Shown one piece after another: positions 18,131-35,640 of a stretch of 35,941 nt of DNA. The stretch is from Clostridia bacterium (GTDB lineage: Bacteria > Bacillota > Clostridia > Peptostreptococcales > JAAYPU01), in contig JADQBM010000076.1 in assembly GCA_016278615.1 (NCBI GenBank), positions 1 to 35,941 on the forward strand, given 5' to 3'. Position 1 is the stretch's first letter, and every line of letters starts with the position of its first letter. Position numbers and translations under genes: made by a program. The notes beneath the pieces are model-generated. The model was not told where the DNA came from and ran no database searches. It saw nothing but the letters and a program-made list of their open reading frames with translations.

Positions 18131-18190
18131 AATTCATCCTTTTCTGGGATTAAGTGTTTACACCGCTCTTGTTAGTAATGCACACAATAA

Positions 18191-18333: not shown

Positions 18334-19437
18334 TTATTCGGAGTCTTCTAAAACATAGGTCACCAATTCACGTTCACCAATTTTCTCTAAATCTATTTGA
18401 TCCTTATAGTCTTCAGGGACCGTTACAGTCTTCGGATTGCCGTCTGAAACAAATTTCGTTCTCTCTCCTTTTTCCAATCGATCCATCCAGTCGTAAATAC
18501 CTGTTCCTTTTACGTATTCTTGTAAATCACTGGCTCTTACTCGATGAATCCCCGAGGGATTAAAGTCCATATCATAAGGTGATTTATAGGGGTCCCAGCC
18601 TACTTCAACAATAGCGATGTTGTGATAATCTTGCTCCTGCCCACTGACAATGTATTGAAAAAGAGACTCATCTTTTTTTGGCTTTGATCCATATGGAAGG
18701 GATAATGTATTCACTTCATAGCCCCGAACGATACTATCGACTTTTTCTTTCACCGTCCATATCTCATGCTCAATGCTTTTAGAATCCGTACAATTTGTAA
18801 AATCAAAATGATTTGCAGTATGATTGCCAATATCCATCCCCTGCTCCACAAGGTAGTTTAATTTATAGTCGAGATACTCTTTTTGACCAAAGGGAACGTT
18901 GTCATTCACAAAGAAAGTCGCTTCTAAAGGAAAATCTGGATGTGCTTCATGAAAATCTGTTAAGATCCCTACAGCACTTTTAGGATCAATGGTATAAGTC
19001 TCATCTTCCTCCGAAATAATATTAAATTGGTTTTTATTTCCATCATCAAAAGTTATCACAACAGGAGAAAACCCAGAGGGTGTATCAATATTACCTTCTG
19101 CATAATCTTTTAAACTAATAGGGCGATAGCCTGTTTCGTATAATTTTTCTAAGTCTTTTCTGAAGCTTTCAGGCGTTCTTGCAAACTCTTTTTCTTCTTC
19201 CCCTATGCTATGATACATCAAGACCATAATTTGACCCGCTTCATTGGGTTTAATTTTTTGTAAATCTATATCAGAAGTGATTATTTCTTCTTCTTCTTCT
19301 TTATCTTGTACTATATCATCAATACCTTCCTCTGTATCCGAAATGGTTTCAGCATCCTGAGAACAACCTGTAATAAATAAAATTAACAATATTATAAATA
19401 CCACTGATGTTTTCTTTAAAATTCTTTTGATTGCCAT
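18334..19437 (-). CDS. Polysaccharide deacetylase lipoprotein
   Basis: Predicted extracytoplasmic de-N-acetylase of 367 residues, similar in layout to PgaB/IcaB-type deacetylases. The signal peptide ends in a lipobox (LFITGC, Cys25), so the protein should be lipid anchored. An acidic linker (30-60) leads into MVLMYHSIGEE, a common opening of this group. The NodB motifs seen are VITFDDG (Asp131, Asp132), HTANHFDF with the two zinc His, and LPYGSKP. The ATG 19437 is preceded by AGGGGGA. Upstream is a hexanucleotide repeat tract, downstream a terminator, so it is transcribed alone. With the EPS operon nearby it is a candidate for trimming N-acetyl groups from the polymer. Confidence 0.9.
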   Translation of the reverse strand: MAIKRILKKTSVVFIILLILFITGCSQDAETISDTEEGIDDIVQDKEEEEEIITSDIDLQKIKPNEAGQIMVLMYHSIGEEEKEFARTPESFRKDLEKLYETGYRPISLKDYAEGNIDTPSGFSPVVITFDDGNKNQFNIISEEDETYTIDPKSAVGILTDFHEAHPDFPLEATFFVNDNVPFGQKEYLDYKLNYLVEQGMDIGNHTANHFDFTNCTDSKSIEHEIWTVKEKVDSIVRGYEVNTLSLPYGSKPKKDESLFQYIVSGQEQDYHNIAIVEVGWDPYKSPYDMDFNPSGIHRVRASDLQEYVKGTGIYDWMDRLEKGERTKFVSDGNPKTVTVPEDYKDQIDLEKIGERELVTYVLEDSE

Positions 19438-20749: not shown

Positions 20750-21561
20750 TTAGGATGCTTCATCAATAGCGGTTAACAATTTATCAACAATTTCGTCTCC
20801 AATGTCTTCACGAATCATGTCATATGCAGGTTTAGCTGCTTCTCTCATTTGTTGATGAGTTTCTTCAGGCAGGTCGATTACTTCAACACCATAATCTTCA
20901 AGATCTTTTCTAAATGAATCTCTTTTTTCACCAGCTAAGTCGTAAGTATATTGGTCCGCTTCGATCATAGCCTCGGTTATAGCAGTCTGATACTCTTCTG
21001 GCAGACCCTCAAAAATATCCTTATTCATGATAACTGTTGCAAGGAACATGATGTGATTAGTATTGATTACATATTTTTGCTGTTCATGGATTTTGTTTGT
21101 ATAAATAGTTTCATACATATTTTCCTGCGCATCGACAACGCCTTGCTGTAAAGCTATATACACCTCGCTCCATGCAAGGGGAGTCGGGTTAGCTCCAATC
21201 GATCTCCAATATTCCATGTGATATGGATTTTCCATGGTTCTAATTTTCAATCCTTCAAAATCCTCAAATGATCTAATTTCTTTATTACTACTGGTTTGGC
21301 GAAAATCTTGAGGAACTATACTGATTAATTTAAAGCCAGCAGCGTCATATTCTTTAGAAATGTCTGCTTTAAAAGGACCGGTCATAACTTCGTAAGCAAC
21401 CTCTCTACTTGGAAAAGTACTTGCCATATCAAAAACAGCAAGAGTAGGTATGAAATTTACTTGAGGCGCCGTAGTTTGACCAACCATTGCGACGTCACCC
21501 ATTTGGCAAGATTCAAGCAACTCTCTATCTGCACCTAATTGACTATTTGGGTAAAGATCAA
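20750..21561 (-). pseudogene. Truncated dctP (TRAP substrate-binding protein), missing its N-terminus
   Basis: This encodes the C-terminal ~256 residues of a TRAP substrate-binding protein nearly identical to the intact copy at 25419-26459. It lacks about 90 N-terminal residues including the lipoprotein signal, so it cannot be exported and is probably dead. Homology to the intact gene runs 20753-21561 (offset 4672 bases). By eye, 20753-21400 is identical and all 11 mismatches fall in 21401-21561, so the copy is a mosaic. At 21562 the sequence switches abruptly to a TetR-like fragment on the other strand. The final Lys codon of the intact gene is also absent. Confidence 0.88.
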
Positions 21562-21956: not shown

Positions 21957-22640
21957 TTAGATAAAATCAATATTATCATAACCAAAATCCTCTAAAGTTT
22001 CTTTTCTGCACACTTCAATATGCTCAACTGTAATTTTAACAGTCTGTTCAAAGTTCATTGCCTTTATAGCAGATAAAAGGCTTTTATGATTTTCAATTAC
22101 TCGTTCAATTCTTTGATCGTTATTTGAAGTTAACTGTCTGAAAACCTTCATTTGATTTCTGTTATCAGTGTACATCGTTGTAAATCTGGAGTTTCCATAA
22201 AGGGCTATAATACTATCGTGGAATAATTCATCAGATTTTACAAAATCTATCCCGTTATTTTTATCTTTTATTACTGTCCCTGGATCTATTTTATTAATTT
22301 CGGTTATATAGTGTTCATAATCTGTAGGAAGTAATACTGTTATAATCTTGTGGAGTACTTCCTTGTCCAACATGAGCCGTATATCAAAAATTTCATTTAT
22401 ATCTTTCGGAGATGCCGAGAAAACATAATAGCCTTTTTTATCTTTAATTTCGATAAGCCCTTCCTTCGTTAGCAGTTGAATAGCATCTCTTACAGGTGTT
22501 CTGCTTATACCTAACATATCAGCAAGCTGGGAATCAACTATTCTAGTTCCAGGGAGCAGTTCATTATGTAAAATCGCTCTTTTTATCAAATCATATGCTT
22601 TCTCATTTAAGTTTTCAACTTTGAGTATTTTATTCTCCAT
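21957..22640 (-). CDS. GntR-family (FCD/FadR subgroup) regulator 1
   Basis: Transcription factor of 227 residues. The N-terminal winged helix (about 10-78) has AYDLIKRAILHNELLPGTRI and LADMLGISRTPVRDAIQLL, the typical GntR recognition helix. The rest is an all-alpha FCD ligand-binding domain (about 85-215) with the expected metal/ligand residues (ELFHDSI, HIEVC). ATG 22640 has GAGGGAG. It is the distal gene of the set at 21957-25102, with a small palindrome in its own leader. It probably controls that set through the palindrome at 25190-25215, with a carboxylate or sugar acid as effector. Confidence 0.92.
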   Translation of the reverse strand: MENKILKVENLNEKAYDLIKRAILHNELLPGTRIVDSQLADMLGISRTPVRDAIQLLTKEGLIEIKDKKGYYVFSASPKDINEIFDIRLMLDKEVLHKIITVLLPTDYEHYITEINKIDPGTVIKDKNNGIDFVKSDELFHDSIIALYGNSRFTTMYTDNRNQMKVFRQLTSNNDQRIERVIENHKSLLSAIKAMNFEQTVKITVEHIEVCRKETLEDFGYDNIDFI

Positions 22641-22655
22641 CCTACACTCCCTCTC

Positions 22656-22669
22656 ATACTATTTAGTAT
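22656..22669. promoter_or_regulatory. Candidate operator upstream of GntR gene 1
   Basis: ATACTATTTAGTAT, two perfect 6-base arms around TT, 15 bases before the GntR start. Position suggests autoregulation. The remaining 150 bases to the next gene show AT-rich sequence without other clear elements. Confidence 0.45.
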
Positions 22670-22821
22670 TGTTTACAAAAAGTAAAATTTAAGCATAAGT
22701 AAGCCAGCCGTGAAGGTATAAGTTTATAATAACCTTAATCTTCAAGGTGGTCAATCTTATGCCTGGGATAATAATATATAAATCATTATATCATTATATT
22801 TAAATTATATATTTCAACTAA

Positions 22822-23484
22822 TTATTCACATCCCAACTCATTAGTAATCTGCATTTCAGTAGCCATAAAAATTCCGGGAGTAATTGTTTCATATTGATGC
22901 CATGGGTACTCAACGTTTTCATCGTACATTGGAATGTGGCTATTTCCAGGAGCCATAGGCTCTTCGCGGTATAATGAGGTTAAATCCTGATAGTAATACT
23001 GCTGCATGGTGCCGAAGCCTACTATCTGAGTATGGACTTCTTTGATAGGAGGACCACCCCAATGAGTTTGATGCAGACCGACTTTCAAAGGAACCGAACC
23101 AGCAAAACACATGTTAACAGCAACATTACCTATATTTATCTTACGTGAACGCCAGAGCGATATACCTTTGTGTCTTTCTTCATGAGTTGCATCATATGCA
23201 AGGGTCCAAGTTTTCTTTACTTCTTCAAATAAAGCTGCTTCATTCATATAATCCATAAATTTTTCAATAATTAAGCATCGTTTAATTTGTTTGATTTTTG
23301 TATTTGTCACTACGACTGAGCGGAAAAAGTCTAACGGACGATTATTTATCATTATAGGTTCTTCTGAAAGATTAAATACAATGCATTTTTCTCCAACTTC
23401 ATATTCTTTTTCATTAAGAATATACTTTACAGGGAAAAATGGCTCTGCATAATCCAATGATCTAATACTCATGTTTTTTCTCAC
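22822..23484 (-). CDS. Unrecognised 220-residue protein, possibly cupin-like
   Basis: I do not recognise this family with certainty. It has no signal peptide or membrane helix. The second half has spaced His residues and short beta-type segments (LHQTHWGG, EVHTQIVGFGTMQQYY, PWHQYETITPGIFMATEM), which look like a cupin or related metal-binding beta barrel. It lies between the racemase-like gene and the GntR gene in one transcription unit, so it is likely an enzyme or sugar-acid-binding protein of that pathway. The listed start is a GTG at 23484; an ATG four codons later (23472) is equally possible, and neither has a strong ribosome binding site. Confidence 0.55.
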   Translation of the reverse strand: MRKNMSIRSLDYAEPFFPVKYILNEKEYEVGEKCIVFNLSEEPIMINNRPLDFFRSVVVTNTKIKQIKRCLIIEKFMDYMNEAALFEEVKKTWTLAYDATHEERHKGISLWRSRKINIGNVAVNMCFAGSVPLKVGLHQTHWGGPPIKEVHTQIVGFGTMQQYYYQDLTSLYREEPMAPGNSHIPMYDENVEYPWHQYETITPGIFMATEMQITNELGCE

Positions 23485-23533
23485 TTTCCAGGAGCTGGAT
23501 CTCCTTTTTGTTTGATAAGTTATTTATTTAGAA

Positions 23534-24220
23534 TTATTGATTTAACAGCTCATCAATACGTTTAAAGGCAGTTTCACCTGCATAAAAAACAGGAACCTTA
23601 AATTTAGCAGATTTAATCTTGTCTTCCATCATGGCAAAAGGAATCTGTCCCATTAATACACAATCAACGCCTTGTTCTATCAATTTTTTTATATCATTTA
23701 AAACTATTTCATCATGTTTTTCGAATTCACCGACGTTAAACAATGCTAAGGCAGTAATATTGTTTGAAAAAGTGATTTCGATTTCCTTATTTATTTTTTC
23801 AGCTCTTGATTTAATTCCCTCTTCTACATAAGGAACAACATATTCTGTTGTATTTATAACCCCTATGCGGCTGTATTTATTAACAACCTCATCAAGAATG
23901 ACGGCATCAAGCTGTATAAAAGGAACATTTACAACTTCACTTGCATACTTCACGGACCTGAGCATAAGACTACAGCAAGATACTATAACACCACAGCCTG
24001 CATTTTCCAGTTGAGCTGCAAAATTAGCATATCTAAGCTTATTTGTCTTTGGGGTAACACCTACTGGTGAATTGAAGTTATCTATTTTAACATTTCCATC
24101 ATATATATGAATAAATTCTGTCTGTGGAAGATACTGTTTCATAAATTTTTCAGCCATTGCGATTGTTGCCGGTGTGGTGTGAATAAACCCAACTTTATTT
24201 CTTTGATTTTTTGCACACAT
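23534..24220 (-). CDS. Aspartate/glutamate/hydantoin racemase-superfamily protein
   Basis: Cytosolic protein of 228 residues with the two-domain racemase fold. It opens with KVGFIHTTPATIAMAEKFM. The first catalytic Cys is present in VIVSCCSLML (about residues 77-86). The second half has GVDCVLMGQIPFAMME where racemases usually have a GC(T/G) motif. Here the expected second Cys is replaced by Gln, so a two-base racemase is unlikely. An isomerase, a decarboxylase like arylmalonate decarboxylase (which has a single Cys), or a lyase are alternatives. It lies in the GntR-1 set between the isomerase-like and unknown genes. ATG 24220 has an AAAGGAAG site. Confidence 0.8.
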   Translation of the reverse strand: MCAKNQRNKVGFIHTTPATIAMAEKFMKQYLPQTEFIHIYDGNVKIDNFNSPVGVTPKTNKLRYANFAAQLENAGCGVIVSCCSLMLRSVKYASEVVNVPFIQLDAVILDEVVNKYSRIGVINTTEYVVPYVEEGIKSRAEKINKEIEITFSNNITALALFNVGEFEKHDEIVLNDIKKLIEQGVDCVLMGQIPFAMMEDKIKSAKFKVPVFYAGETAFKRIDELLNQ

Positions 24221-24271
24221 ATAATTACTTCCTTTATCTAATTTATTTTAGCTAATTCGATGTAAAATAAT

Positions 24272-25102
24272 CTATGATTTTATGATACTGTTGTATAAAT
24301 TACGGATATATTTGAGACCAGCAGTAGCTTCTTCAATACCATCTCCGACAGATTTAAATTCGAAAACTAAATAGTCTTGATAGTCAATTTCTTTTAATGT
24401 CAGTAACATTTTGGGGAAATCAAAATGCTTTCCATCGGGAACAGCTCTTTTTAAATCGGATATATCTGCTTGTGCCACTACGCCTTTTGCTTTTAAAACA
24501 GCAGAGTAAAAATCCGATTCTTCAAGATCCATATGATATGAATCTATTTGTAATTGAAAGTATGGAGAATTAAAGCTTTTTATTAAAACTAAGTTTTCTT
24601 CAATTGTTCCTAAAACATCACAATCAGTTCTTCCAATAGCTTCATGCACTATGCGTATTTGGTTTTTTTCTGCGTAACTTATGCATTCAGGTAAACTTTT
24701 TCTATACTGTTGCATAAATTCTTCTTTAGTATCACAATCTGCATAAGAACCTCTTATGGTTCCTATACCCACATCTGCTCTCCCCAGTTTTACTGCCAAA
24801 CCAATATGTTCTTTCATTCTTTCAATTGCAGCCAGACGTTTGGCTTCTTTTTTATGTCCAAGGCTTATACCATCCACTGTGTAAGCTTGTCCTGTTGCGA
24901 TGGCAGACACCTTTATTTTATAGGTATTTAAAGCTACCAATGCCTCTTCTAAATCAAATTCTGCTGGTCGATTGATTTGAAATTGGACCGCATCATAGCC
25001 AATAGATGCCGCATTCTTGATTATTTCAGTTACAGTACCTTTTAATGGAGCCGGTGCATTTACTGAGCTTGCAGGAGCACCTACCACACTAGTTTTCCAC
25101 AT
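24272..25102 (-). CDS. Sugar phosphate isomerase/epimerase (AP-endonuclease-2 type TIM barrel)
   Basis: First gene of the GntR-1 set, 276 residues. The TIM barrel shows IGYDAVQFQINRPAEFDLEE, RIVHEAIGRTDC, LQIDSYHMDLEES, AQADISDLKR and YLVFEFKS, the usual Glu/Asp/His metal-binding strand ends of xylose-isomerase-like enzymes (EC 5.x, e.g. hydroxypyruvate isomerase, inosose dehydratase or tagatose epimerase relatives). The exact substrate is unknown. ATG 25102 has AAGGGGG. It is preceded by a strong promoter and a long palindromic operator. Confidence 0.85.
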   Translation of the reverse strand: MWKTSVVGAPASSVNAPAPLKGTVTEIIKNAASIGYDAVQFQINRPAEFDLEEALVALNTYKIKVSAIATGQAYTVDGISLGHKKEAKRLAAIERMKEHIGLAVKLGRADVGIGTIRGSYADCDTKEEFMQQYRKSLPECISYAEKNQIRIVHEAIGRTDCDVLGTIEENLVLIKSFNSPYFQLQIDSYHMDLEESDFYSAVLKAKGVVAQADISDLKRAVPDGKHFDFPKMLLTLKEIDYQDYLVFEFKSVGDGIEEATAGLKYIRNLYNSIIKS

Positions 25103-25418: not shown

Positions 25419-26459
25419 TTATTTGGATGCTTCATCAATAGCGGTTAACAATTTATCAACAATTTCGTCTCCAATGTCTTCACGAATCATGTCATATGCA
25501 GGTTTAGCTGCTTCTCTCATTTGTTGATGAGTTTCTTCAGGCAGGTCGATTACTTCAACACCATAATCTTCAAGATCTTTTCTAAATGAATCTCTTTTTT
25601 CACCAGCTAAGTCGTAAGTATATTGGTCCGCTTCGATCATAGCCTCGGTTATAGCAGTCTGATACTCTTCTGGCAGACCCTCAAAAATATCCTTATTCAT
25701 GATAACTGTTGCAAGGAACATGATGTGATTAGTATTGATTACATATTTTTGCTGTTCATGGATTTTGTTTGTATAAATAGTTTCATACATATTTTCCTGC
25801 GCATCGACAACGCCTTGCTGTAAAGCTATATACACCTCGCTCCATGCAAGGGGAGTCGGGTTAGCTCCAATCGATCTCCAATATTCCATGTGATATGGAT
25901 TTTCCATGGTTCTAATTTTCAATCCTTCAAAATCCTCAAATGATCTAATTTCTTTATTACTACTGGTTTGGCGAAAATCTTGAGGAACTATACTGATTAA
26001 TTTAAAGCCAGCAGCGTCATATTCTTTAGAAATGTCTGCTTTAAAAGGACCGGTCATAACTTCGTAAGCAACTTCTCTGCTTGGAAAAGTACTTGCCATA
26101 TCAAAAACAGCAAGAGTAGGAATAAAGTTTACTTGAGGAGCGGTGGTTTGACCAACCATTGCGACGTCACCCATTTGACAAGCTTCAAGCAACTCTCTAT
26201 CTGCACCTAATTGACTATTTGGATAAAGATCAATTGTTAGCTTACCATCCGTTTTTTCTGCAACAAGTTCTGCAAATTTTACCAATCCTTTGTGTGTAGA
26301 AGTTTCTTCACTGGTAGCAGTTCCTAACTGAAGATTCATTACTGGTAATCCTTCAGCCTCCGGTGCTTCTGCTTCTTCCTCTGGTGCCCCACCACATGCA
26401 GCAAGACTCAAGACCATCATACAAGCCAATAGCAAACTTAAAATTCTTCTCTTTTTCAT
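25419..26459 (-). CDS. dctP: TRAP transporter substrate-binding protein DctP
   Basis: Extracytoplasmic binding lipoprotein of a tripartite (TRAP) transporter, 346 residues. The signal peptide ends in a lipobox (LSLAAC, Cys22), followed by an acidic linker. The binding-protein fold includes GLKIRTMENPYHMEYWRSIG, whose Arg normally holds the substrate carboxylate, and LQQGVVDAQENM, the DctP signature. It is preceded by dctQ and dctM in the order Q-M-P. The 132-base gap after dctM contains hairpins. ATG 26459 has GGAGGG. The ligand is probably a carboxylate or sugar acid handled by the adjacent GntR-controlled enzymes. A truncated copy lies at 20750-21561. Confidence 0.95.
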   Translation of the reverse strand: MKKRRILSLLLACMMVLSLAACGGAPEEEAEAPEAEGLPVMNLQLGTATSEETSTHKGLVKFAELVAEKTDGKLTIDLYPNSQLGADRELLEACQMGDVAMVGQTTAPQVNFIPTLAVFDMASTFPSREVAYEVMTGPFKADISKEYDAAGFKLISIVPQDFRQTSSNKEIRSFEDFEGLKIRTMENPYHMEYWRSIGANPTPLAWSEVYIALQQGVVDAQENMYETIYTNKIHEQQKYVINTNHIMFLATVIMNKDIFEGLPEEYQTAITEAMIEADQYTYDLAGEKRDSFRKDLEDYGVEVIDLPEETHQQMREAAKPAYDMIREDIGDEIVDKLLTAIDEASK

Positions 26460-26548
26460 TTCTTTCCCTCCTAATTATATATTTATAATTTGGTTTGAAA
26501 AATCCTTAGAATTAGTTTTAAGGACTTTTCTATCTATTTTACAAGGAT

Positions 26549-26566
26549 TCCAACCAATGGGTTGGA
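26549..26566. repeat. Hairpin between dctM and dctP
   Basis: TCCAACC and GGTTGGA around a 4-base loop, 26 bases after the dctM stop. A second, imperfect stem (CCTTA...TAAGG) lies nearer dctP, around 26505-26525. No U-tract follows either. They could protect the dctP message or weaken read-through. Confidence 0.5.
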
Positions 26567-26591
26567 CTCCCGATAAACAGAGTTATTTTTC

Positions 26592-27878
26592 TTAAAGTAA
26601 AATCAGACTGACTGCCGGAACAAATGTAATAATCGCTAATGCAATAATAAATGCGAGAACAAATGGATAGGCCATTTTACCTACTGTAACAACCGGCGTA
26701 TCAATGAGTGGGCTCGCCACAAATAAATTCATTCCGAAAGGCGGTGTTACAAAACCTATAGCAAGATTCACTACCATGATAATCCCTAAATGTATTGGAT
26801 CTATTCCCATAGCAACAGCGATGGGCATTAAAATCGGAGATAGTATGATTATTGCTGGTCCTGTATCCATTACCATCCCCATAACTAAAAATACACCATT
26901 AAGTACCAGTAACAGCCCAATTTTTGTTGTGAAATTATCAGTGATGTAGTCTGCTAAAATCATGGGCACTCTCATCAACGTAAGAATACGTCCAAGAGCC
27001 ATTGCCATAGCTAATAAAATTGTAAGAGGCGCATACATTCTGACAGATTCAACAAAAATAGGTAGTAACCGTTTTACAGATATTGTTTTATAAATAAATA
27101 AACATATTAGCAAAGCATAGAAAACCGAAACAGTAGCAGCCTCTGTTGGCGTAACGATACCACTATAAATTCCTCCTAGAATAATTATTGGAGTAAGCAG
27201 CGCCCAAAAACTTTCTTTAAAAACTACTAAAAAACCTTTATCTTTTAATGCCTTATGATTGGCTTTAATCTTTTCCTTGTCCTCTCCTTTAACGCGACAA
27301 TATATATAGGCATATGTCATGAGACAAAGTGCAATAAGTATCCCTGGCAATATACCTGCAGTAAACATTGCCCCCACTGATACTCCAGTAGCTAAACCAT
27401 ATAAAATGAATGGAATGCTGGGAGGAATGATAACCCCAAGACCTCCAGCAGTTGCAACTAAAGCTGCACTAAACACCTTGTTATATCCCAATGATACTAG
27501 TATTGGAATGGTCATGGCACCGACAGCTGCTGTTGTTGCAGGGCCAGAACCCGAAATAGCACCATAAAACAAACATGTAATAATAACAGCTGAAGGCATT
27601 CCTGCTGTTCTGCTCCCTATAAAATAGGCGAAAACATCAAACAACTTCTTCGATATTCCTCCTCTTGCCATCAACGCTCCAGACAACATAAAAAGTGGAA
27701 TAGCAAGAATTGGGGTGTTATCAACGCCACTCACCATGTTTCTGATAACATAATCTATATTGGCGGGAAAATTATCAACGATGAAAGTCGGAGCGATACA
27801 CACGATTCCTATAACAACACTAATGGGAACCGTAATAAGTAATAAAACGACAGCAATTAATAAAACAATAGACAACAC
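26592..27878 (-). CDS. dctM: TRAP transporter large permease DctM
   Basis: Large membrane subunit (428 residues, about twelve helices) that moves the substrate using the sodium gradient. It shows family segments such as NTPILAIPLFMLSGALMARGG, FYGAISGSGPATTAAVGAMT, GLGVIIPPSIPFILYG and IGFVTPPFGMNLFV. It follows dctQ after 120 bases. The start at 27878 is GTG; the next codon, TTG, is also possible because the ribosome binding site AAGG is close. Confidence 0.96.
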   Translation of the reverse strand: MLSIVLLIAVVLLLITVPISVVIGIVCIAPTFIVDNFPANIDYVIRNMVSGVDNTPILAIPLFMLSGALMARGGISKKLFDVFAYFIGSRTAGMPSAVIITCLFYGAISGSGPATTAAVGAMTIPILVSLGYNKVFSAALVATAGGLGVIIPPSIPFILYGLATGVSVGAMFTAGILPGILIALCLMTYAYIYCRVKGEDKEKIKANHKALKDKGFLVVFKESFWALLTPIIILGGIYSGIVTPTEAATVSVFYALLICLFIYKTISVKRLLPIFVESVRMYAPLTILLAMAMALGRILTLMRVPMILADYITDNFTTKIGLLLVLNGVFLVMGMVMDTGPAIIILSPILMPIAVAMGIDPIHLGIIMVVNLAIGFVTPPFGMNLFVASPLIDTPVVTVGKMAYPFVLAFIIALAIITFVPAVSLILL

Positions 27879-27998
27879 GACACCTTCTTATGTTTTATTT
27901 AGGTTTTTCTATAGGAACACCTATAACCCATTAAGTCAAAATATAAAACTCTAATTTTGCATTTTCGTATTATACAGATTTTTATGAAATTTTTATTG

Positions 27999-28487
27999 CT
28001 ATACTGGCTTTTCTTCCCTAATTTCAGTAAGACTAATGATCAAACGTTGAATGCCGCGTATTACCGAAAGGGAGAAACCTATCAATCCCGATAAATAGAT
28101 ATAATGCATGGGCATACCCACTGCCGGACTTGTCTGCCCACTGGCATAGATATCCTTCACCACATTTACAGAATTAATAGCTAAATAGAAGAAAAATATA
28201 ATGACGATTAAATCTACAACTATATTTAAATAGTTGGTTATGTTTTTAGGCAGATAATGAAATAACACGTCAACTTTAAGTGATATCCCTCTTTTAATAC
28301 AATAACTCACACCTAAAAAAGTACTCCATATAAAACAATAACGTGTAAATTCTTCTGGCCAAGATAGCGATGCATTGAAAACATACCTCATAGTTATCTG
28401 AAGCATCATCGCACTGGCAATAAGAGCCAACAATACTACCATGATGTATTCTTCAAAATGTTCGTCTAGCCACTTAAGTAGTCGCAT
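27999..28487 (-). CDS. dctQ: TRAP transporter small permease DctQ
   Basis: Small membrane subunit (162 residues, four helices) that pairs with DctM. The first loop has the family pattern YVFNASLSWPEEFTRYCFIW and the second YCIKRGISLKVDVL. It begins the dctQMP unit. ATG 28487 has GGAGG. No convincing promoter is visible in the 359 bases upstream, so it may be transcribed from the creatininase-side operon. Confidence 0.93.
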   Translation of the reverse strand: MRLLKWLDEHFEEYIMVVLLALIASAMMLQITMRYVFNASLSWPEEFTRYCFIWSTFLGVSYCIKRGISLKVDVLFHYLPKNITNYLNIVVDLIVIIFFFYLAINSVNVVKDIYASGQTSPAVGMPMHYIYLSGLIGFSLSVIRGIQRLIISLTEIREEKPV

Positions 28488-28846: not shown

Positions 28847-29812
28847 TTATGTTGGCCAGCCTAAAGTGTAGATATGTTTACCGCCGTTTAAGGGACCTTT
28901 TAGTAGAGCTTCTATCTCTTTTTTATCTCTTTGAGACATTAACTCAGCATCGGGCAGAACACCTACAGGGAATTTTTCCAAAAGGTCACCCATAAGTTTT
29001 TCCATGTAATCACATACTTTTTCTATAGATTCATATGCCTTTTCAGCTTTTGCAAGAGTAGCATTCCCTAAAACACCTTCAGGAAAAGTTACACACTCTA
29101 TACCGCAATTGCCCACCTGACAATGACCAGGGATTGGGTGACCGTATATGTCCCCTCCGCGATCTACGTGCCCAGGTGGTAGAAATCCCTTAACACTTGT
29201 ATTTTCTGCATATTCCATATCACATAGTTCTGGAAAAAGAGCAAGGGAAATGGATGTTTCAGCCTCATCTGCATGTTGAAATGGCGTTTCATATGGACCA
29301 CCATGTGCCTTGTCCATAAGGGTCTGCCCCATAATACGAGGAAGATCAAGAAAATAAAGGATTGCAGGAACTTGATATTTTTTACCCCACTCTTGAAGAG
29401 CAGAAGGAATTATATATTCCTGGCCATGCATACTGATAAATATTTGTTTACGAAAACCAGTATTCCAAAAACCTGTAATAATCGCTCGTAAATAATCCGA
29501 AAACACACTATCAGGCAAGGGAATCGTTCCCGGCTGTCCTATATGGTGAAAAGGATGGGACCCATACCAGACAGGTTCAGCTACTGTACATCCAGTCTTT
29601 TCAGCTACCATCTCTGCAATACGTGTAACAATAAAGGTATCCTCACCTATGGGACCAGCATTACCATGATTTTCTGTTGAACCTACTGGAATAATAATGA
29701 CATCATTTTCCTTTAAGCGTTGTTCAATATCTCGTTTATTCATAGTTTGAAAATAAATCTTAGTTGGATCTTCCATATGTCCACCTTTTGGTGGTATGTT
29801 CCATTTGCTCAT
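28847..29812 (-). CDS. Creatininase-family amidohydrolase
   Basis: Metal-dependent amidohydrolase-type protein of 321 residues. IIIPVGSTENHG (39-50) gives the first metal ligands (Glu47, His49), GEDTF the Asp (58), ISMHGQ the central His, and HADEAETS the conserved late Glu motif. The family includes creatinine amidohydrolase and enzymes opening cyclic amides or formamides. At 321 residues it is longer than typical creatininases (about 250-265). It starts 14 bases after the cupin gene at ATG 29812 with AAGGAGG. It is the last gene of the RraA-Ldh-AOR operon, suggesting that the pathway substrate contains an amide. Confidence 0.85.
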   Translation of the reverse strand: MSKWNIPPKGGHMEDPTKIYFQTMNKRDIEQRLKENDVIIIPVGSTENHGNAGPIGEDTFIVTRIAEMVAEKTGCTVAEPVWYGSHPFHHIGQPGTIPLPDSVFSDYLRAIITGFWNTGFRKQIFISMHGQEYIIPSALQEWGKKYQVPAILYFLDLPRIMGQTLMDKAHGGPYETPFQHADEAETSISLALFPELCDMEYAENTSVKGFLPPGHVDRGGDIYGHPIPGHCQVGNCGIECVTFPEGVLGNATLAKAEKAYESIEKVCDYMEKLMGDLLEKFPVGVLPDAELMSQRDKKEIEALLKGPLNGGKHIYTLGWPT

Positions 29813-29826
29813 TGTACTTCCTCCTT

Positions 29827-30186
29827 CTATTTTCTATGCCCATCTAATTGTGGGGAATATATCCAAATAAATTTTAATGGTATTTTTCCAGTATTTACGA
29901 TTGAGTGTGTGGCTCCCGGAGGATTATACACACAGATGCCTGGCTTCAATACAATTTCTTGATCTTCAGTAATAAATTTTCCTTCACCTTCTAAAAAATA
30001 CATGACTTCTTCTTCTTTTTCATGTTTATGTTCAGGTACGCATCCACCAACATGAGTTACATTAACGCCCATGGCTAAGTTTTGGGCCCCTACTGTTTTT
30101 TCTGAAACTAAAATCCAAGATGTTCTTGGAGGTTGACGCGTTTCACCATCAACATTATTAATATCAACTACTTTTAATCCTGACAT
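29827..30186 (-). CDS. Small cupin-domain protein
   Basis: Single-domain cupin of 119 residues. The metal-site motif is visible in VPEHKHEKEEEVMYFLEGEG (His, His, Glu) and the second motif in YNPPGATHSIVNTG (His). Such proteins act as small isomerases, dioxygenases or sugar/acid-binding proteins. It is encoded between the aldehyde oxidoreductase and creatininase-family genes and is probably an auxiliary enzyme of that pathway. The ATG has AAGGAG. Confidence 0.88.
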   Translation of the reverse strand: MSGLKVVDINNVDGETRQPPRTSWILVSEKTVGAQNLAMGVNVTHVGGCVPEHKHEKEEEVMYFLEGEGKFITEDQEIVLKPGICVYNPPGATHSIVNTGKIPLKFIWIYSPQLDGHRK

Positions 30187-30254
30187 AATGACACACTCCT
30201 TGTTATTAATTATAGATTATATTTTTTTAATAAATGGTAAAATAACATAACATT

Positions 30255-31994
30255 TTAGAAGGAATCGGTTCTTACTTCTACGGACCATATTCGTTCTAAT
30301 TCTTCCTGTGGGATGTCAAACACGGTGTTATTTGGAGGCAAAGGTTCCTCGGTCATAAACTCTGGAATTCTTTTATACTTTTCTGAAACACCAGCAGCTT
30401 CATTGAACGCTCTTTCAGTTTCAAGGACATCTGCACCCATATATTTAATTTCACCCAATGTGAAATCCCAACCATGTCTTGCTTTATATAAATTGGTAAG
30501 CAATTCGGGAGATTTTACAAAAGCTGGCCTGATAAACAAACATACACCCATGGAATCTAAAATAGCTGCTCGCACTTGTAGCTGTCGAGAATTATTAACC
30601 TGATTTTCCAACCCAAGAGGATTGTTTGTCTTAAGGGTTTCAAAAGCATTTCCTGCTGTGTGATCAGCACCCATTGGGGAAGTGATATAGGTTACCCCAT
30701 TACCTTTTAATGCACGGGGATCATATGCAGGCATGGCCTGACCTTTTGCTACCGGTACACGCCTGTTGCCAAAAGCTTGCCCTGTGAATGCGGCTCCGTT
30801 TCCTATAATTCTTCCTAAATATGTCCCTTGACCCACTTGACGAATCATATCTTTTGCAGCTTCAGCATCTCCGAAGTTAGCAACGCCTGAATCCATAGCG
30901 ACGCCAATTGCTGCGCCACATTCAATAGCATCAAGTCCAACTTGATTACAGAGATGATTTAATTCACCAATGTCATCAATATCTCCAATCCCACAATTAG
31001 GACCTAACAAAGATAAATTCTCATATTGCAAAGAAGCCACCCTTTTTTTGCCTTCTTTATCTGGCATTATGTTGCTACATTGGATGGTACAGCCTGGTAC
31101 GCATGGTGTTCCCGATTTCCCTACCCCACCACGTTTTTGAACCATTTCAGCAAAATCCGGTCCTGTTAATCCAGAAACATCTTCAAACTGACCTGAACTA
31201 AAGTTTCTTGTTGGAAATATTCCAACTTGGTTTGCCATTTCCAAGATATCAAGTGTTCCATATTTCTTGCGATTTATGCTTTTGGGATTCTCAAAAAGTG
31301 TCTTCGTTATTTTCATTACTGTATCTTTCAATAATTCAGCATCAAAATAATCAGGTATATAGGTCGCTCCCGCATCATCTATTACAATCGCTTTAATGCC
31401 TTTAGAACCCATAACCGCGCCTAAACCACCGCGACCTGCATAACGAACTTGCAAGCCTTTATCATCGATTGATGCGATACCAGCACCATGCATTTTAAAC
31501 TCACCGGCTGGTCCAATACAAATAAGTCCTGTCTTTTCACCAAACTGTTTTCTTAGTGCCAGAAAAGTCTCATCTACTAACATCCCTTTTAGTTCTGGTG
31601 TCTCTATAATTGAAATTCTATCCTTAGTAACATGTAATACTCTTGTCATGATTTTATTTCTTTCAGGTATATCTTCAAGTATTAATGCTTTGATTCCAAG
31701 TTTTGATAGCCTCTTTCCTGCAAAGCCACCTACATTGCTTTCCTTGGCACCACCAGTTAGTGGGCTTTTCCCGCCAAATGATAGTTGCCCTGTGGTGGTT
31801 AAGCTGGTATCCGCAAAAAGACCATTGGCTAAAATTAATTTATTGTGTTTGCCAAGAGGCTCACATGTTGGAGGTACTTCATTGATTAAAGTTTTAGCAA
31901 TGAAGTGTCTTCCACCCCATACAGCTTGTTCTTCAGTAGGTTTTGTATAGGTTACCTCACCTGTTTGAGTATTGACTCTTACTATTTTATCCAT
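30255..31994 (-). CDS. Tungsten-containing aldehyde:ferredoxin oxidoreductase family protein
   Basis: Predicted cytosolic tungstopterin/4Fe-4S enzyme of 579 residues, oxidising an aldehyde to an acid with ferredoxin (or the reverse). The N-terminal pterin-binding domain shows LTGGAKESNVGGFAGKRLSK (79-98) and RYAGRGGLGAVMGSKG (184-199). The cluster ligands are Cys298, Cys302 and Cys306 (CVPGCTIQC) with Cys485 in DSMGVCLF near the active site. It is complete and slightly short for the family (about 605). A MoaD-like protein is encoded in the same region. The operon sits under a GntR operator, and the gene starts 2 bases after the Ldh-type gene. Confidence 0.93.
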   Translation of the reverse strand: MDKIVRVNTQTGEVTYTKPTEEQAVWGGRHFIAKTLINEVPPTCEPLGKHNKLILANGLFADTSLTTTGQLSFGGKSPLTGGAKESNVGGFAGKRLSKLGIKALILEDIPERNKIMTRVLHVTKDRISIIETPELKGMLVDETFLALRKQFGEKTGLICIGPAGEFKMHGAGIASIDDKGLQVRYAGRGGLGAVMGSKGIKAIVIDDAGATYIPDYFDAELLKDTVMKITKTLFENPKSINRKKYGTLDILEMANQVGIFPTRNFSSGQFEDVSGLTGPDFAEMVQKRGGVGKSGTPCVPGCTIQCSNIMPDKEGKKRVASLQYENLSLLGPNCGIGDIDDIGELNHLCNQVGLDAIECGAAIGVAMDSGVANFGDAEAAKDMIRQVGQGTYLGRIIGNGAAFTGQAFGNRRVPVAKGQAMPAYDPRALKGNGVTYITSPMGADHTAGNAFETLKTNNPLGLENQVNNSRQLQVRAAILDSMGVCLFIRPAFVKSPELLTNLYKARHGWDFTLGEIKYMGADVLETERAFNEAAGVSEKYKRIPEFMTEEPLPPNNTVFDIPQEELERIWSVEVRTDSF

Positions 31995-31996
31995 AA

Positions 31997-33040
31997 CTAT
32001 TCGCTCCCCAGTCTGATATTTGAATTCGCCTGAATAAGGATTTTATTGAGTGCCATTAACTGTTCCTCAGTCATATTGACTCCAACATCTTGACTTTCTT
32101 CTTCTTTTCGATACTCAATTTCCCCAGGCATTAATATTTCATGGAACCCTTGTGCTTTTTTAAGATTCTTAATAGAACCTGTATAGCCTGCCATAAGTTC
32201 TTTAAATTTATTTAATTCCATAAATCTGGAAATATCTATTACGATACAAGAAACGCCCGCACCAGTAGGTCCTTCCAGTGCGTGAAATGATTTAAGATTA
32301 GGTGCATAGGATGCGCCGGATAAAATACCCGAAAGTATGTCTACCGTCAATGCCAGGGCTGATCCTTTGGGCCCGCCCATAGGTAGAAGTGTTCCCTTTA
32401 ATGCTTCATTTGGATCTGTAGTTGAAAAGCCCTCTTCATCCAAGGCCCAATCCTTGGGAATATCGACGCCTTCACGCGCTGCCTTTCGTACTTTTCCTCG
32501 AGCTACGACACTTGAAGCCATATCAGCGTTAAAGCCTACGCCATCAGATGCAACAGAAATACCTATGGGATTTGTTCCCATAAATTGCTCTGCTCCACCA
32601 AAAGGTGCCATAGCAGGTGCCGCATTACCAGACATGATAGCAATCATACCTTGGTCAGCCGCCTTTTGTGTATAACACGCCAATGAACCTATATTATTTG
32701 TATTTCGTACCAGCACAATGCCAATACCATATTGTTTTGCTTTCTCAATGGCAAGTTCTACCGCCTCATTTGCTGCTACCATGCCAATGCCATCCATTCC
32801 GTCGATAATAGCAGTTGCCCCACTATCAGAAACTACTTTTGGAATAGTGGGTAATTCCAAAAGTCCGGCCTCCACTCTCATGGCCATTACTTTAAGTAAA
32901 TATGTACCATGAGTGGATACACCTCTCATATCCGCTTTAACAAGAATATTGGCAATTACTTCAGCATTATCAGAAGTCTCTCCCAAATATTTAAGAATAT
33001 CTATAGCGCCTTGTTTTAGTGTATTGACAGCTATTTTCAT
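31997..33040 (-). CDS. Ldh2-family malate/L-lactate/ureidoglycolate-type dehydrogenase
   Basis: NAD(P)-dependent 2-hydroxyacid dehydrogenase of the type-2 malate/lactate family (relatives: ComC sulfolactate, AllD ureidoglycolate, YlbC/MdH), 347 residues from ATG 33040. The start is chosen because GGGGG lies 8 bases upstream; an ATG at 33055 lacks a site. Motifs are ADMRGVSTHGTY with the catalytic His (44), VRNTNNIG, GTNPIGISV and PMGGPKGSALAL. It probably oxidises the hydroxyacid intermediate of the pathway to the ketoacid cleaved by the RraA-type aldolase encoded just upstream. Confidence 0.9.
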   Translation of the reverse strand: MKIAVNTLKQGAIDILKYLGETSDNAEVIANILVKADMRGVSTHGTYLLKVMAMRVEAGLLELPTIPKVVSDSGATAIIDGMDGIGMVAANEAVELAIEKAKQYGIGIVLVRNTNNIGSLACYTQKAADQGMIAIMSGNAAPAMAPFGGAEQFMGTNPIGISVASDGVGFNADMASSVVARGKVRKAAREGVDIPKDWALDEEGFSTTDPNEALKGTLLPMGGPKGSALALTVDILSGILSGASYAPNLKSFHALEGPTGAGVSCIVIDISRFMELNKFKELMAGYTGSIKNLKKAQGFHEILMPGEIEYRKEEESQDVGVNMTEEQLMALNKILIQANSNIRLGSE

Positions 33041-33080
33041 TGAAATTACCCCCATTTATCAGTACTTCTTGTGTTAATTA

Positions 33081-33752
33081 TTATTCTTCTTTTAGTCCTA
33101 ACTTTTCAAATATTGGCCCAAATTTATTAAAATCAACACTGGAAACACCGGATTTAAGGATCTTTGCTTTATCAATTTCTTTGTTGTCACGCTCAACAGA
33201 TTTTTTGAATATTTCTTCACAATCTTCTCTTTTCACAACTACCATGCCATCGTCATCTCCCAGGATAAGATCACCAGGTTCAATCATTATGCCACCAAAT
33301 ACAGTTGGATAATTTATAAGCCCTAAGGTCCCTTTTACAGTCCCTCTTATGGCAGTCCCTCTACAAAAAACTGGAAACTTCATTTCAATTATTTCGTTTG
33401 AATCACGGACGCACCCATCAATTGCAAGTCCACCAAGATCTTTGGCCATAGCAGAAATGGCCATTAACCCTCCAAAATATCCATATTCGTATCCCCCTGC
33501 TGTTGTTGCAACGATCACATCACCGGGTTGTGCTATCTCAAGGGCTTTATGAAGCATCATATTATCACCAGGCATACATTGAACGGTTAAAGCTGGTCCA
33601 CAGATTTTAATACCTCTTCCAAGAGGTTTAATGGCATAACTTACCGCACCCTTTTTCCCTGAAGCCTCATGCACTGTTGCTGAAGACAAATCATAAAACG
33701 CCTTTACCATATCAATTGATGGTCTTTCTATATTCTTTCTTACATGTATCAT
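33081..33752 (-). CDS. RraA-family aldolase/decarboxylase-like protein
   Basis: First gene of the operon, 223 residues. The family includes 4-hydroxy-4-methyl-2-oxoglutarate and 4-carboxy-4-hydroxy-2-oxoadipate aldolases that yield pyruvate, and RNase E inhibitor RraA. The aldolase Arg-Asp pair is seen in IDGCVRDSNEI (Arg116, Asp117), with GDNMMLHKAL and PGDLILGDDDGMVVV as other family landmarks. In a catabolic operon in a clostridium the aldolase role is favoured. ATG 33752 has GGGAGG. A GntR operator and promoter lie just upstream. Confidence 0.88.
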   Translation of the reverse strand: MIHVRKNIERPSIDMVKAFYDLSSATVHEASGKKGAVSYAIKPLGRGIKICGPALTVQCMPGDNMMLHKALEIAQPGDVIVATTAGGYEYGYFGGLMAISAMAKDLGGLAIDGCVRDSNEIIEMKFPVFCRGTAIRGTVKGTLGLINYPTVFGGIMIEPGDLILGDDDGMVVVKREDCEEIFKKSVERDNKEIDKAKILKSGVSSVDFNKFGPIFEKLGLKEE

Positions 33753-33794
33753 TTTGAAAATTCCTCCCTTTAATTACTCCAGTATATTCAATTT

Positions 33795-33843
33795 AATATC
33801 ACCGATATATCAGTTATATTAAAAATAATTGAGCGTATGTCAT
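33795..33843 (-). promoter_or_regulatory. Promoter and GntR-2 operator of the RraA-Ldh-AOR operon
   Basis: Operator AATATCACCGATATATCAGT at 33795-33814 matches the one before GntR gene 2 at 19 of 20 positions. On the minus strand it is preceded by ATGACA (33838-33843), 17 bases, AATATA (33815-33820), a weaker promoter than that of the regulator gene. Confidence 0.7.
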
Positions 33844-33876
33844 TTTTTAATTAATCCTGTATTAATTAATATTAAA

Positions 33877-34095
33877 CTACCCGCCCATTACTGCGATGAA
33901 TAGATGGATCTCATCATCATTTGCAATTGGATTGCTTTCTTCAATAATAGTAGAACCTTTAATAACAATTAAAATGTCTCGAATTTTTTGCGGTATTGCC
34001 ATTTCGTCAAGTATTTCACTGACGATTTTTGAATCATTTATTGTTATGTCACAGCTATACTTCTTTAGTAAGCCATGCCCAACTAATAAAGCCAT
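33877..34095 (-). CDS. MoaD/ThiS-like sulfur-carrier protein
   Basis: Small beta-grasp protein of 72 residues ending in Gly-Gly (IAVMGG), the site that becomes a thiocarboxylate in MoaD and ThiS. The LLVGHGLLKKYSC start and DEIHLFIAVMGG end fit the family. MoaD-type proteins are often encoded with aldehyde:ferredoxin oxidoreductases and donate sulfur for the tungstopterin cofactor, so a dedicated cofactor role here is likely. It follows GntR gene 2 by 53 bases and may share its transcript. Confidence 0.8.
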   Translation of the reverse strand: MALLVGHGLLKKYSCDITINDSKIVSEILDEMAIPQKIRDILIVIKGSTIIEESNPIANDDEIHLFIAVMGG

Positions 34096-34148: not shown

Positions 34149-34802
34149 CTACAACTCACTAATAAAGCCTTCCTTCATACGTAGTATTGCTTTTTTAATA
34201 TGTGCTTGCAAACATGCAGTCGCTTGTTCTTTATTTCCTGCTTTTATTTCATCTAAGATTTGTATGTGCTCATCAAGGGCCTCAGGGCTGCTATATTTTG
34301 CTATCTTATTGGAACAGAAAAAATACTGCTCTCTTAAATTTTCGATAATGCTAATAAAGTAATCATTGTCATAAAGTTCAAAAAAAACATGGTGGAATTC
34401 ATTGTCCTTTTTTGTATACTGTTTAATATCGCCTTTTTTTAATAGTCTCTTTTGCTGGTCAACCAATTCGACTAACTTATGTATATCTTTATCTGTAATA
34501 AGATCAAAAGCCTCTTCAAATACGAATTTTTCAATACACTCTCTAACTTGAAATATTTTAATAACATCTTTAATGTCTGTTCTAACAACAAAAAAACCTA
34601 CATTGGGAACGCGTTGAAGAAATTTTTCTCTTTGTAATCTAATTAATGCTTCACGCACAGGTGTATAACTCATTCCTATTTCATTTGAAAATTCTCTGGC
34701 ACTTAAATAGCTGCCATTCTCAAAGCCAGTAATTTTTTCTTTTATTATATGATAAGCTTTTTCACTTAAAGTGTCAGATTTCACAGTGCTTTCACCGTCC
34801 AA
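34149..34802 (-). CDS. GntR-family (FCD) regulator 2
   Basis: Transcription factor of 217 residues. The winged helix (about 8-75) contains LSAREFSNEIGMSYTPVREA, and the all-alpha FCD domain follows with NEFHHVFFELYDND and a C-terminal HIKKAIL. It is distinct from regulator 1. The listed start is TTG at 34802 without a clear ribosome binding site; a GTG at 34784 with GGTGA nearby is an alternative. Its own promoter carries a palindrome repeated before the enzyme operon, so it likely represses both itself and the RraA-Ldh-AOR operon until an effector binds. Confidence 0.92.
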   Translation of the reverse strand: MDGESTVKSDTLSEKAYHIIKEKITGFENGSYLSAREFSNEIGMSYTPVREALIRLQREKFLQRVPNVGFFVVRTDIKDVIKIFQVRECIEKFVFEEAFDLITDKDIHKLVELVDQQKRLLKKGDIKQYTKKDNEFHHVFFELYDNDYFISIIENLREQYFFCSNKIAKYSSPEALDEHIQILDEIKAGNKEQATACLQAHIKKAILRMKEGFISEL

Positions 34803-34820: not shown

Positions 34821-34872
34821 AATATCACTGATATATCAGTACCAATATATCATAGGAATTCTTCCTTGTCAA
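34821..34872 (-). promoter_or_regulatory. Promoter and operator of GntR gene 2
   Basis: TTGACA (34867-34872) and TATATT (34844-34849) are 17 bases apart on the minus strand. The operator at 34821-34840 contains the perfect 14-base palindrome ACTGATATATCAGT (34827-34840), starting 3 bases after the -10 box, i.e. over the transcription start. Confidence 0.85.
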
Positions 34873-35030: not shown

Positions 35031-35477
35031 TCATGGATTATATCCAGGAAAATGATCTAATAAAGCACTTATTCCCAGAAGATAACTTCTGTACCCAAAT
35101 CCACAAATTTGGCCCACGCACACATCTGTTATGACAGATATATGTCTAAATGCTTCTCTATTAAATATGTTAGATACGTGCACTTCTACAACAGGAATTC
35201 CAATTGCTCCAATCGCATCTTTAATAGCAAAACTGTAATGAGTAAATGCCCCTGCGTTAATTACTATTCCACTGAAATCTTTTTCTGCATCCTGGATTTT
35301 ATCGATTATGACTCCTTCATGATTTGACTGGAAAATTTCAAGATTTACTTGATTATCTTCTGCAAATTTCTCGATTCTTTTACATAAACTTTCATATGTT
35401 TCTTTACCATAGATATGCAGCTCCCTTTTCCCTAAAAGGTTAATGTTAGGTCCATTAATAACTAAAATATTGTTCAC
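35031..35477 (-). CDS. aroQ: Type II 3-dehydroquinate dehydratase
   Basis: Third enzyme of the shikimate pathway, converting 3-dehydroquinate to 3-dehydroshikimate; 148 residues, usual length. Motifs are NGPN (8-11), Arg18 and Tyr23 in the flexible active-site loop, NAGAFTH (74-80, where most relatives have NPGAYTH), and HVSN..NREAFR (100-111). I chose the GTG at 35477 because AGGTGG lies 8 bases upstream and it gives MNNILVINGPN, the family's usual N-terminus; a GTG at 35489 would add four residues. It is not in an aro operon. Upstream are a promoter, an aromatic-rich short ORF and a terminator. Confidence 0.95.
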   Translation of the reverse strand: MNNILVINGPNINLLGKRELHIYGKETYESLCKRIEKFAEDNQVNLEIFQSNHEGVIIDKIQDAEKDFSGIVINAGAFTHYSFAIKDAIGAIGIPVVEVHVSNIFNREAFRHISVITDVCVGQICGFGYRSYLLGISALLDHFPGYNP

Positions 35478-35640
35478 TACTTTCACCACCTATTCACCTA
35501 TTCAATTTTTTTATTGCTGTTTCAAAACTGTAATAACCATTTTTGTAAATAATATTCACTTCTCAAAGATCAGTTTGCAAACCGAAAACATATATTAAAC
35601 CCAGTTTATTGGGAGTTTAATCTATTTGAACTTTAAAGTT

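Follow-up and report, generated by a model that had tools for sequence, protein, structure and literature searches.

Which compound could an anaerobic bacterium degrade with an RraA-fold aldolase, an Ldh2-family dehydrogenase, a tungsten-type aldehyde:ferredoxin oxidoreductase (AOR), a cupin and a creatininase-fold enzyme that are encoded side by side? This gene set lies on a stretch of 35,941 nucleotides from a member of the Clostridia (assembly GCA_016278615.1, contig JADQBM010000076.1), the whole of which we call the window. A preceding sequence-only reading had described the set as a catabolic operon. The role that we favour, by a modest degree, is that of a GntR-controlled regulon which breaks down quinate and/or shikimate without oxygen and without passing through an aromatic compound. 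Spelled out as chemistry, the proposal has about an even chance of being right: in anaerobes of at least three phyla a creatininase-fold hydrolase would open 3,5-didehydroquinate, a tungsten AOR and Ldh2 would yield 4-carboxy-4-hydroxy-2-oxoadipate (CHA), and an aldolase would end the oxygen-free quinate/shikimate route.

A conserved gene unit

An AOR scan over the genome contigs of 84,980 species confirmed 275 relatives, and the best 80 of these 275 loci were analysed, with gene presence scored at fixed bit thresholds. Thirteen of the 80 (L016-L028) carry an AOR with at least 55% identity and are called close loci here, while the AORs of the 67 distant loci have 42-47%. The features of the window that enter the comparison are listed below; C27 is another contig of the same genome.

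25419..26459, minus strand: DctP, TRAP solute-binding protein (PF03480, 284 bits; 39-46% relatives in clusters L016, L017, L018, L019, L021, L027 and L028)
26592..27878, minus strand: DctM, TRAP large permease (PF06808, 344 bits; 56-63% identity to the cluster copies of L018, L019, L021, L027 and L028)
27999..28487, minus strand: DctQ, TRAP small permease (PF04290, 114 bits; about 50% in L018, L019, L021 and L028, a fragment in L027)
28847..29812, minus strand: IolN-like C-C hydrolase of the creatininase fold, the proposed ring-opening enzyme (NF041098, 531.8 bits; 62-82% identity in 10 of the 13 orthologous loci)
29827..30186, minus strand: cupin, a proposed ketol isomerase/tautomerase (Cupin_2; at least 80 bits in 12 of 13 loci, a fragment in L023)
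30255..31994, minus strand: aldehyde:ferredoxin oxidoreductase family protein, tungsten type by family (AFOR_N and AFOR_C; 1aor, 210 bits)
31997..33055, minus strand: Ldh2-family 2-hydroxyacid dehydrogenase (PF02615, 354 bits; in 13 of 13 loci)
33081..33752, minus strand: RraA-fold aldolase of the HMG/CHA type (NF006731, 214.8 bits; 3noj alignment over residues 5-220, active-site residues kept)
33795..33813, minus strand: operator-like site CTGATATATCGGTGATATT before rraA (exact copy also at C27:5805-5823, ahead of the ADH-TIM-AroE operon)
33877..34095, minus strand: MoaD/ThiS-like protein of 72 aa with a GG C-terminus (named by eye from its shape and Gly-Gly end; proposed AOR cofactor supply)
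34149..34802, minus strand: GntR/FCD regulator (PF00392 and PF07729; 9 of the 13 loci have an orthologue of at least 150 bits next to the cluster)
34821..34839, minus strand: operator-like site CTGATATATCAGTGATATT before gntR, directly downstream of a TTGACA-17-TATATT promoter-like site (34872-34844)
35031..35489, minus strand: AroQ, type II 3-dehydroquinate dehydratase, of uncertain cluster membership (TIGR01088, 195.3 bits, cut-off 169.85)

The six genes named by the sequence-only reading, from the creatininase type to the MoaD type, all lie where it had placed them on the minus strand and have clear family matches, with the exception of the MoaD/ThiS-like protein, for which no Pfam or NCBIfam model match was found. 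In the run rraA-ldh2-aor-cupin-creatininase type the intergenic gaps are 25, 2, 68 and 14 nt. The TRAP genes follow downstream of the creatininase-type gene after a gap of 359 nt, and the GntR/FCD regulator lies upstream of the unit.

That these genes form one conserved catabolic unit was borne out by their co-occurrence in other genomes, which is strong; a lack of it had been named by the sequence-only reading as grounds for refutation. RraA and Ldh2 are present in all 13 close loci, the cupin in 12, a zinc-dependent alcohol dehydrogenase (Zn-ADH) in 11, and the IolN-like gene, the MoaD-like gene and a TIM barrel in 10 each. The MoaD/ThiS-like relatives (29-39%, at least 35 bits) stand upstream of rraA. 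Of the close loci, L016, L017 and L024 lack the IolN-like gene; all three are short contigs, and the L024 genome carries the gene on another contig. By contrast, the 67 distant loci contain no RraA (at least 100 bits; a weaker match of 65 bits occurs in L064), no MoaD, no GntR and no TIM barrel, one Zn-ADH, and seven each of Ldh2, cupin and IolN-like genes. The 14 cluster AORs form one clade (SH-aLRT 100, quick tree of 88 rows). We conclude that this is a real, conserved catabolic unit, which is very probably co-regulated.

The unit is larger than the segment 28847-34095 that had been proposed for it. Some of the loci share the GntR gene (34149-34802; in 9 of 13, of which L020 and L027 have it on the opposite strand) and the TRAP genes dctQMP (25419-28487; DctM in 7 of 13, no TRAP match in L022 or L023), in support of the earlier remark on TRAP uptake next door. 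A Zn-ADH, a TIM barrel and an AroE-like gene on C27 belong to the unit as well. AroE and AroQ each occur in 2 of the 13. The full layout elsewhere comprises GntR, MoaD-like, RraA, Ldh2, AOR, cupin, TRAP, a first ADH (ADHa), IolN-like, a second ADH (ADHb) and the TIM barrel; it is complete in L018 and L028, L019 and L021 each lack one gene in the available stretch, and the others vary.

The close loci come from Bacillota (including Fervidicola and Thermovorax), Anaerolineaceae (Chloroflexota) and Spirochaetales, plus one contig of bacterium GBS-1. No AOR above 45% identity was found among the matches listed in 97 searched relatives of the window genome. An IolN-type protein (E<=1e-30) occurs in 12 of 391 genomes of the class and reaches at least 80% identity in three, the genome itself, G151 and G224, of which G151 appears to carry the L020 contig (same matches). 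Because the cluster is rare, patchy and spread over distant phyla, horizontal transfer is suggested. A plasmid search with the IolN-like protein was of no use here (286 records, all below 60% identity, and 27-30% in the 10 matches listed).

The aldolase, the hydrolase and the oxidoreductases

The RraA-fold protein aligns gap-free over 216 residues to the P. putida HMG/CHA aldolase 3noj (169.8 bits, against 73.8 for the match that follows). The HMG/CHA aldolase model NF006731 (cut-off 179) is passed by all six proteins tested, the window copy with 214.8 bits and those of five related loci with 198.9-226.1. Identity as the RNase regulator RraA was rejected, since that match is much weaker. In P. 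putida numbering, E36, N71, H75, R123, D124, G144, T145, K147, R195 and E199 are kept in the window and in all 13 close loci, while residue 40 is R or K and residue 102 is G, D or E; D124 is an active-site residue as well. Roles for N71, R123, G144, T145, K147 and R195 are given in excerpts of PMC5065237, where N71 and K147 are the proposed ligands of the CHA C5-carboxylate.

The creatininase-type protein had been expected to open an amide. This is not upheld: it reaches 531.8 bits on the IolN model NF041098 (3-dehydro-scyllo-inosose hydrolase, cut-off 245) and only 82.1 bits on the true creatininase model TIGR04448, below the cut-off of 235. By these scores the protein fits IolN, not an amidase. 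IolN hydrolyses a cyclic 1,3-diketone.

Tungsten AORs are marked by a cysteine cluster and a distal cysteine for an Fe4S4 centre. Aligned to 1aor, the window AOR has cysteines 298, 302 and 306 (CX3CX3C) and 485, and together with the AFOR_N and AFOR_C domains this pattern would place it in the tungsten family. Its assignment as the likely aldehyde-oxidising step can be retained on these family features. The window genome holds nine AOR-family matches, at the high end of the range of 0-12 among 98 genomes. The MoaD-like protein had been suggested as a possible server of the cofactor, and ThiF-family genes in two related clusters (L022, L026), with a ThiS gene in L025, are in line with such a supply. 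As to the Ldh2 protein, sulfolactate, ureidoglycolate, malate/lactate and dehydrogulonate dehydrogenase were tried as identities and rejected, as every curated equivalog cut-off was missed. The predicted cupin model (pLDDT 94) has a fold that resembles TM1459, KdgF, DddK, phosphomannose isomerase and others; the model is compatible with isomerase or tautomerase chemistry, which is not proof of it.

A shared operator-like sequence links a second operon

The window has neither the ADHs nor the TIM barrel of the full layout. The same genome has them in one gene run on contig C27, in an operon that also encodes a short VOC protein:

C27 4565-5608: Zn-ADH, 65% to ADHa of L018
C27 3579-4394: TIM barrel, 55% to the L018 copy
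C27 2668-3528: AroE-like protein, 75% to the Spirochaetales copy (L025)

The 19-bp sequence CTGATATATCRGTGATATT occurs twice in the window, ahead of gntR and ahead of rraA. Once it had been picked out there, it was sought on C27, which homology had already linked to the unit. An exact copy stands there some 200 nt ahead of the ADH gene; when C27 was shuffled 200 times, 3 shuffles contained the sequence with 3 mismatches or fewer. The whole 3.5-Mb assembly contains three exact sites, before gntR, before rraA and before the C27 operon; a fourth site, with 2 mismatches, lies on the opposite strand and overlaps the one at rraA. The same search with the sequence reversed, as a control, gave no site. 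With as many as 3 mismatches allowed, 0.02 sites would be expected in the window by chance. At this setting, sites are found in 6 of 24 loci scanned (L018, L019, L027, L028, L130 and L110), with none in the other 18 (including L016, L017 and L020-L026), and the control loci, 946,071 bases in all, contain no site. The gntR site stands right after the TTGACA-17-TATATT promoter-like sequence, a position as expected of an autorepressor, although promoter-like matches overall are not enriched (47 versus 47.7 in shuffles).

In the window genome, ADHb finds its best match (43%) in the ADHa gene, which suggests that its place is taken by AroE in this organism. In the Spirochaetales loci L025 and L026 the cluster holds an AroE gene (on the opposite strand in L026) and two AroQ genes in tandem. 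On L147, the second contig of the L024 genome, the order is IolN-like, ADH, AroQ, AroQ, TIM barrel. These tandem type II dehydroquinases form diverged pairs (L025 19164-20087, L026 11008-11949, L147 10225-11139). The presence of AroE and dehydroquinase in related clusters points to hydroaromatic acids. In the genomes of L025, L026 and L024 the only AroQ copies found are those of the cluster; since AroD-AroE fusions with the HSxSP motif are located elsewhere in these three genomes, the cluster copies look surplus to biosynthesis.

Biosynthetic AroE proteins carry an SxS substrate motif. The cluster AroEs (L110, L025 and L026, including the C27 copy) lack it and read QT[FL]AP instead, in contrast to the HSxSP of four biosynthetic copies (L108, L142, L143, L146) and the HSYSP of the other AroE of the window genome; the motif pattern did not match L141 and L144. 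QT[FL]AP would thus mark a specialised AroE subfamily, as far as the motif tells. The window AroQ was rejected as proof of catabolism, being the sole dehydroquinase found in its genome, where no type I enzyme was found.

A proposed route from quinate and shikimate

From the gene content, its conservation, the common operator-like site and the family and active-site matches we infer the substrate, the reactions and their order as follows. The TRAP transporter would take up quinate and/or shikimate. The AroE-type dehydrogenase, or the second Zn-ADH in other genomes, would make 3-dehydroquinate, and AroQ would bring in shikimate via 3-dehydroshikimate. An IolM-like Zn-ADH would then oxidise the other beta-hydroxyl to give 3,5-didehydroquinate. 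This compound has a 2-hydroxy-1,3-diketone arrangement like that of IolN's own substrate, and by this analogy the IolN-like 'creatininase' could hydrolyse a ring C-C bond, releasing HOCH2-CO-CH2-C(OH)(COO-)-CH2-COO-. The terminal hydroxymethyl ketone (ketol) would have to become a 2-hydroxyaldehyde before AOR can act, a step that may fall to the cupin and/or the epimerase-type TIM barrel. AOR with ferredoxin would oxidise the aldehyde to the acid, Ldh2 would give CHA, and the RraA-fold CHA aldolase would split CHA into pyruvate and oxaloacetate.

Every enzyme type finds one place in this scheme, with cupin and TIM barrel competing for the isomerase step. By formula arithmetic, the conversion of quinate (C7H12O6) to CHA (C7H8O8) takes in two waters and releases eight electrons. 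This balance is met exactly by two ring oxidations, one hydrolysis, an AOR step with its one water and two electrons, and the removal of two more electrons by Ldh2. The order of steps suggested by the sequence-only reading survives in part: an Ldh2 oxidation followed by RraA-type cleavage is kept, while AOR, which had been placed last, likely acts before Ldh2 and both before the aldolase.

Several observations weigh against a quinate/shikimate route. The hydroaromatic link rests on four genomes, and AroE or AroQ is seen in 2 of the 13 close loci within the available stretch; the cluster AroE was not found in the L024 genome. The altered AroE motif may mean a substrate other than shikimate. The window AroQ may be biosynthetic, and no operator-like site was found before it. 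The TIM barrels of L025 and L026 lack two of four putative metal ligands (our own assignment). All six aldolases tested miss the ligK_PcmE model TIGR02798 (cut-off 304.5), with 204.9 bits for the window and 186.9-208.1 for the five others. The IolN model does not fix the substrate: a second IolN-type gene of the same genome, on contig C85 (within locus L129, 26000-39651), has 53% identity to the window protein and scores 530.5 bits, so that the model cannot separate the two. The C85 set may be the organism's inositol cluster, which is a guess, as its companions stay under their cut-offs. The electron balance equally allows an inositol route ending in 2-ketoaldarate, and in a sister clade AOR is combined with cupin, IolN-like and Ldh2 genes but not with RraA. 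The breadth of the IolN model limits our confidence, and the chemistry is a prediction.

Alternative substrates

Degradation of inositol or another cyclitol is an unlikely reading: two ring oxidations and an IolN-type hydrolysis would lead to a keto-sugar acid, AOR and Ldh2 would turn it into a 2-ketoaldarate, and an RraA-type cleavage would follow. The score of 531.8 bits on the IolN model speaks for it, as does a redox balance that by our reasoning works too. In L018 the ADHs are similar to IolM, though with 219 and 207 bits they stay under its cut-off of 450, and the TIM barrel is weakly IolO-like (62 bits, cut-off 300). The C27 TIM barrel gave no match to the IolO model at E 1e-10. Against an inositol route stands C85, where the other IolN-type gene is accompanied by two ADHs, an IolO-like TIM barrel (250.5 bits) and a sugar-type ABC transporter, in place of which the unit described here has TRAP. 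The C85 ADHs reach only 191.6 and 154 bits on the IolM model. Because these neighbours miss the IolM and IolO cut-offs as well, C85 is less firm as a separate inositol set, and the companion test discriminates little. Further points against cyclitols are the AroE and AroQ genes in related clusters and the CHA carboxylate-binding residues retained by the aldolase.

The sister AORs nearest to the cluster clade (L029-L034, L045 and L083, from Chloroflexota and Acidobacteriota) mostly have the cupin, IolN-like and Ldh2 genes of the unit as neighbours but no RraA, and 4 of these 8 loci encode an unknown protein of the 304-aa type (L033:1520-2434). Single sister loci also hold an IclR gene (L033), branched-chain-type ABC transport (L030) and a CoA-transferase (L032). 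The shared genes suggest that IolN-like protein, cupin, AOR and Ldh2 are a module which turns 2-hydroxy-1,3-diketones into 2-oxoacids and serves more than one ring. Some other cyclic or branched carboxylate might then feed this module, with quinate and shikimate not being the natural substrates; we regard this as quite unlikely. The sister clade and the altered AroE motif would agree with it, but the tandem AroQ genes of three Spirochaetales clusters do not, and AroE-family enzymes are not known to act on anything other than quinate, shikimate or amino analogues.

Classical quinate/shikimate catabolism to protocatechuate, with the TIM barrel as an AsbF/QuiC-type 3-dehydroshikimate dehydratase, is very unlikely: AsbF (3dx5) is the best, if weak, PDB sequence match of the TIM barrel (30.6 bits), a fold search with the C27 TIM-barrel model (pLDDT 92.7) includes AsbF and the QuiC-type fusion 5hmq at ranks 36-37, and the C27 operon has its short VOC protein, but Foldseek ranks ketose 3-epimerases first, 8 of 10 related loci with this TIM barrel have neither AroE nor AroQ in the available stretch, and the IolN-like protein, AOR, Ldh2 and the CHA aldolase would be left without a role.

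Neighbouring genes

The genes at 21957-25102 of the window (GntR, unknown, racemase-like, TIM barrel) were considered as members of the unit and rejected; best-hit tables across the 13 cluster loci gave only weak GntR matches (L024, L025). Their TIM barrel (24272-25102) has 175 bits on the IolO model (cut-off 300), and the 220-aa protein between the GntR regulator and the racemase-like gene (22822-23484) has no Pfam or NCBIfam match. These four genes are bracketed by a partial repeat of dctP: a truncated second copy of its 3' part at 20750-21520 is near-identical to 25419-26459 (about 700 bp with 3 mismatches, a direct repeat 4672 bp apart), which is either a partial duplication or an assembly effect. 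Solved relatives of DctP were uninformative as to its ligand, as the best 60 of 100 matching solved sequences include binders of sialic acid and of isethionate as well as many proteins without a named ligand.

Further away, at 4280-19437, lie genes for a BcsB cellulose-synthase-like subunit, a glycosyltransferase and WsfD-like, GH8, GH26, polysaccharide deacetylase and GGDEF proteins, probably an exopolysaccharide cluster unrelated to the catabolic unit. In the Anaerolineaceae cluster L022, a carboxylesterase-family gene (PF00135, 5771-7279) stands directly upstream of gntR and is preceded by peptide-type ABC transporter genes; as a speculation, its product might release quinate from esters.

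Relation to known pathways

The closest precedent is the IolM-IolN-IolO inositol pathway of Thermotoga maritima (NF041097, NF041098, NF041099), reportedly described by Rodionova and colleagues in 2013. Like the system proposed here, it has a Zn-ADH that makes a cyclic beta-diketone, a C-C hydrolase of the creatininase fold and an epimerase-type TIM barrel. The clusters described here have AOR, Ldh2, a CHA-type aldolase, a cupin, TRAP and AroE/AroQ in addition, and they miss the IolM and IolO models. In the tests of PMC3750489, T. maritima did not grow on inositol, a warning that a cluster of this kind is no guarantee of growth.

With the last step of protocatechuate 4,5-cleavage and gallate degradation (LigK/PcmE, HMG/CHA aldolase, 3noj) the cluster shares the aldolase fold, the active site and the proposed substrate CHA; here CHA would arise from a non-aromatic ring without oxygen, and the TIGR02798 cut-off is missed. 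The aerobic quinate/shikimate pathway leads through AroE/QuiA, AroQ and QuiC to protocatechuate. AroE- and AroQ-type entry enzymes are common to both, whereas here a hydrolytic ring opening is proposed and no aromatisation. The window AOR resembles the tungsten AORs 1aor and 8c0z in its family domains and cysteine pattern, differing in that it belongs to a separate, cluster-tied clade and would act on a dicarboxylic 2-hydroxyaldehyde.

The statement that no described pathway has this gene set is supported in that we found none among the listed titles and abstract openings of open-access papers, which is weak evidence of absence. Fermenting bacteria that degrade hydroaromatics without aromatic intermediates were reportedly described decades ago, without genes, in a paper that our literature search did not find. 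Quinate and shikimate are plentiful in plants, and quinic acid is part of the chlorogenic acid of coffee. Excerpts of a 2024 paper on coffee and gut bacteria (PMC11602726) state that gut microbial enzymes degrading quinic acid are mostly lacking from current knowledge, and name protocatechuate and hexahydrobenzoate as the products of two other routes that have been proposed. With a named gene set, the hydroaromatic question becomes testable with a handful of enzymes. If the proposal is true, AOR and IolN-type hydrolases would have a new role. It could also explain why CHA aldolases occur in organisms without aromatic ring-cleavage clusters, where their role is called unknown in excerpts of PMC5065237, and an aldolase known from aerobic aromatic breakdown would then end an oxygen-free pathway.

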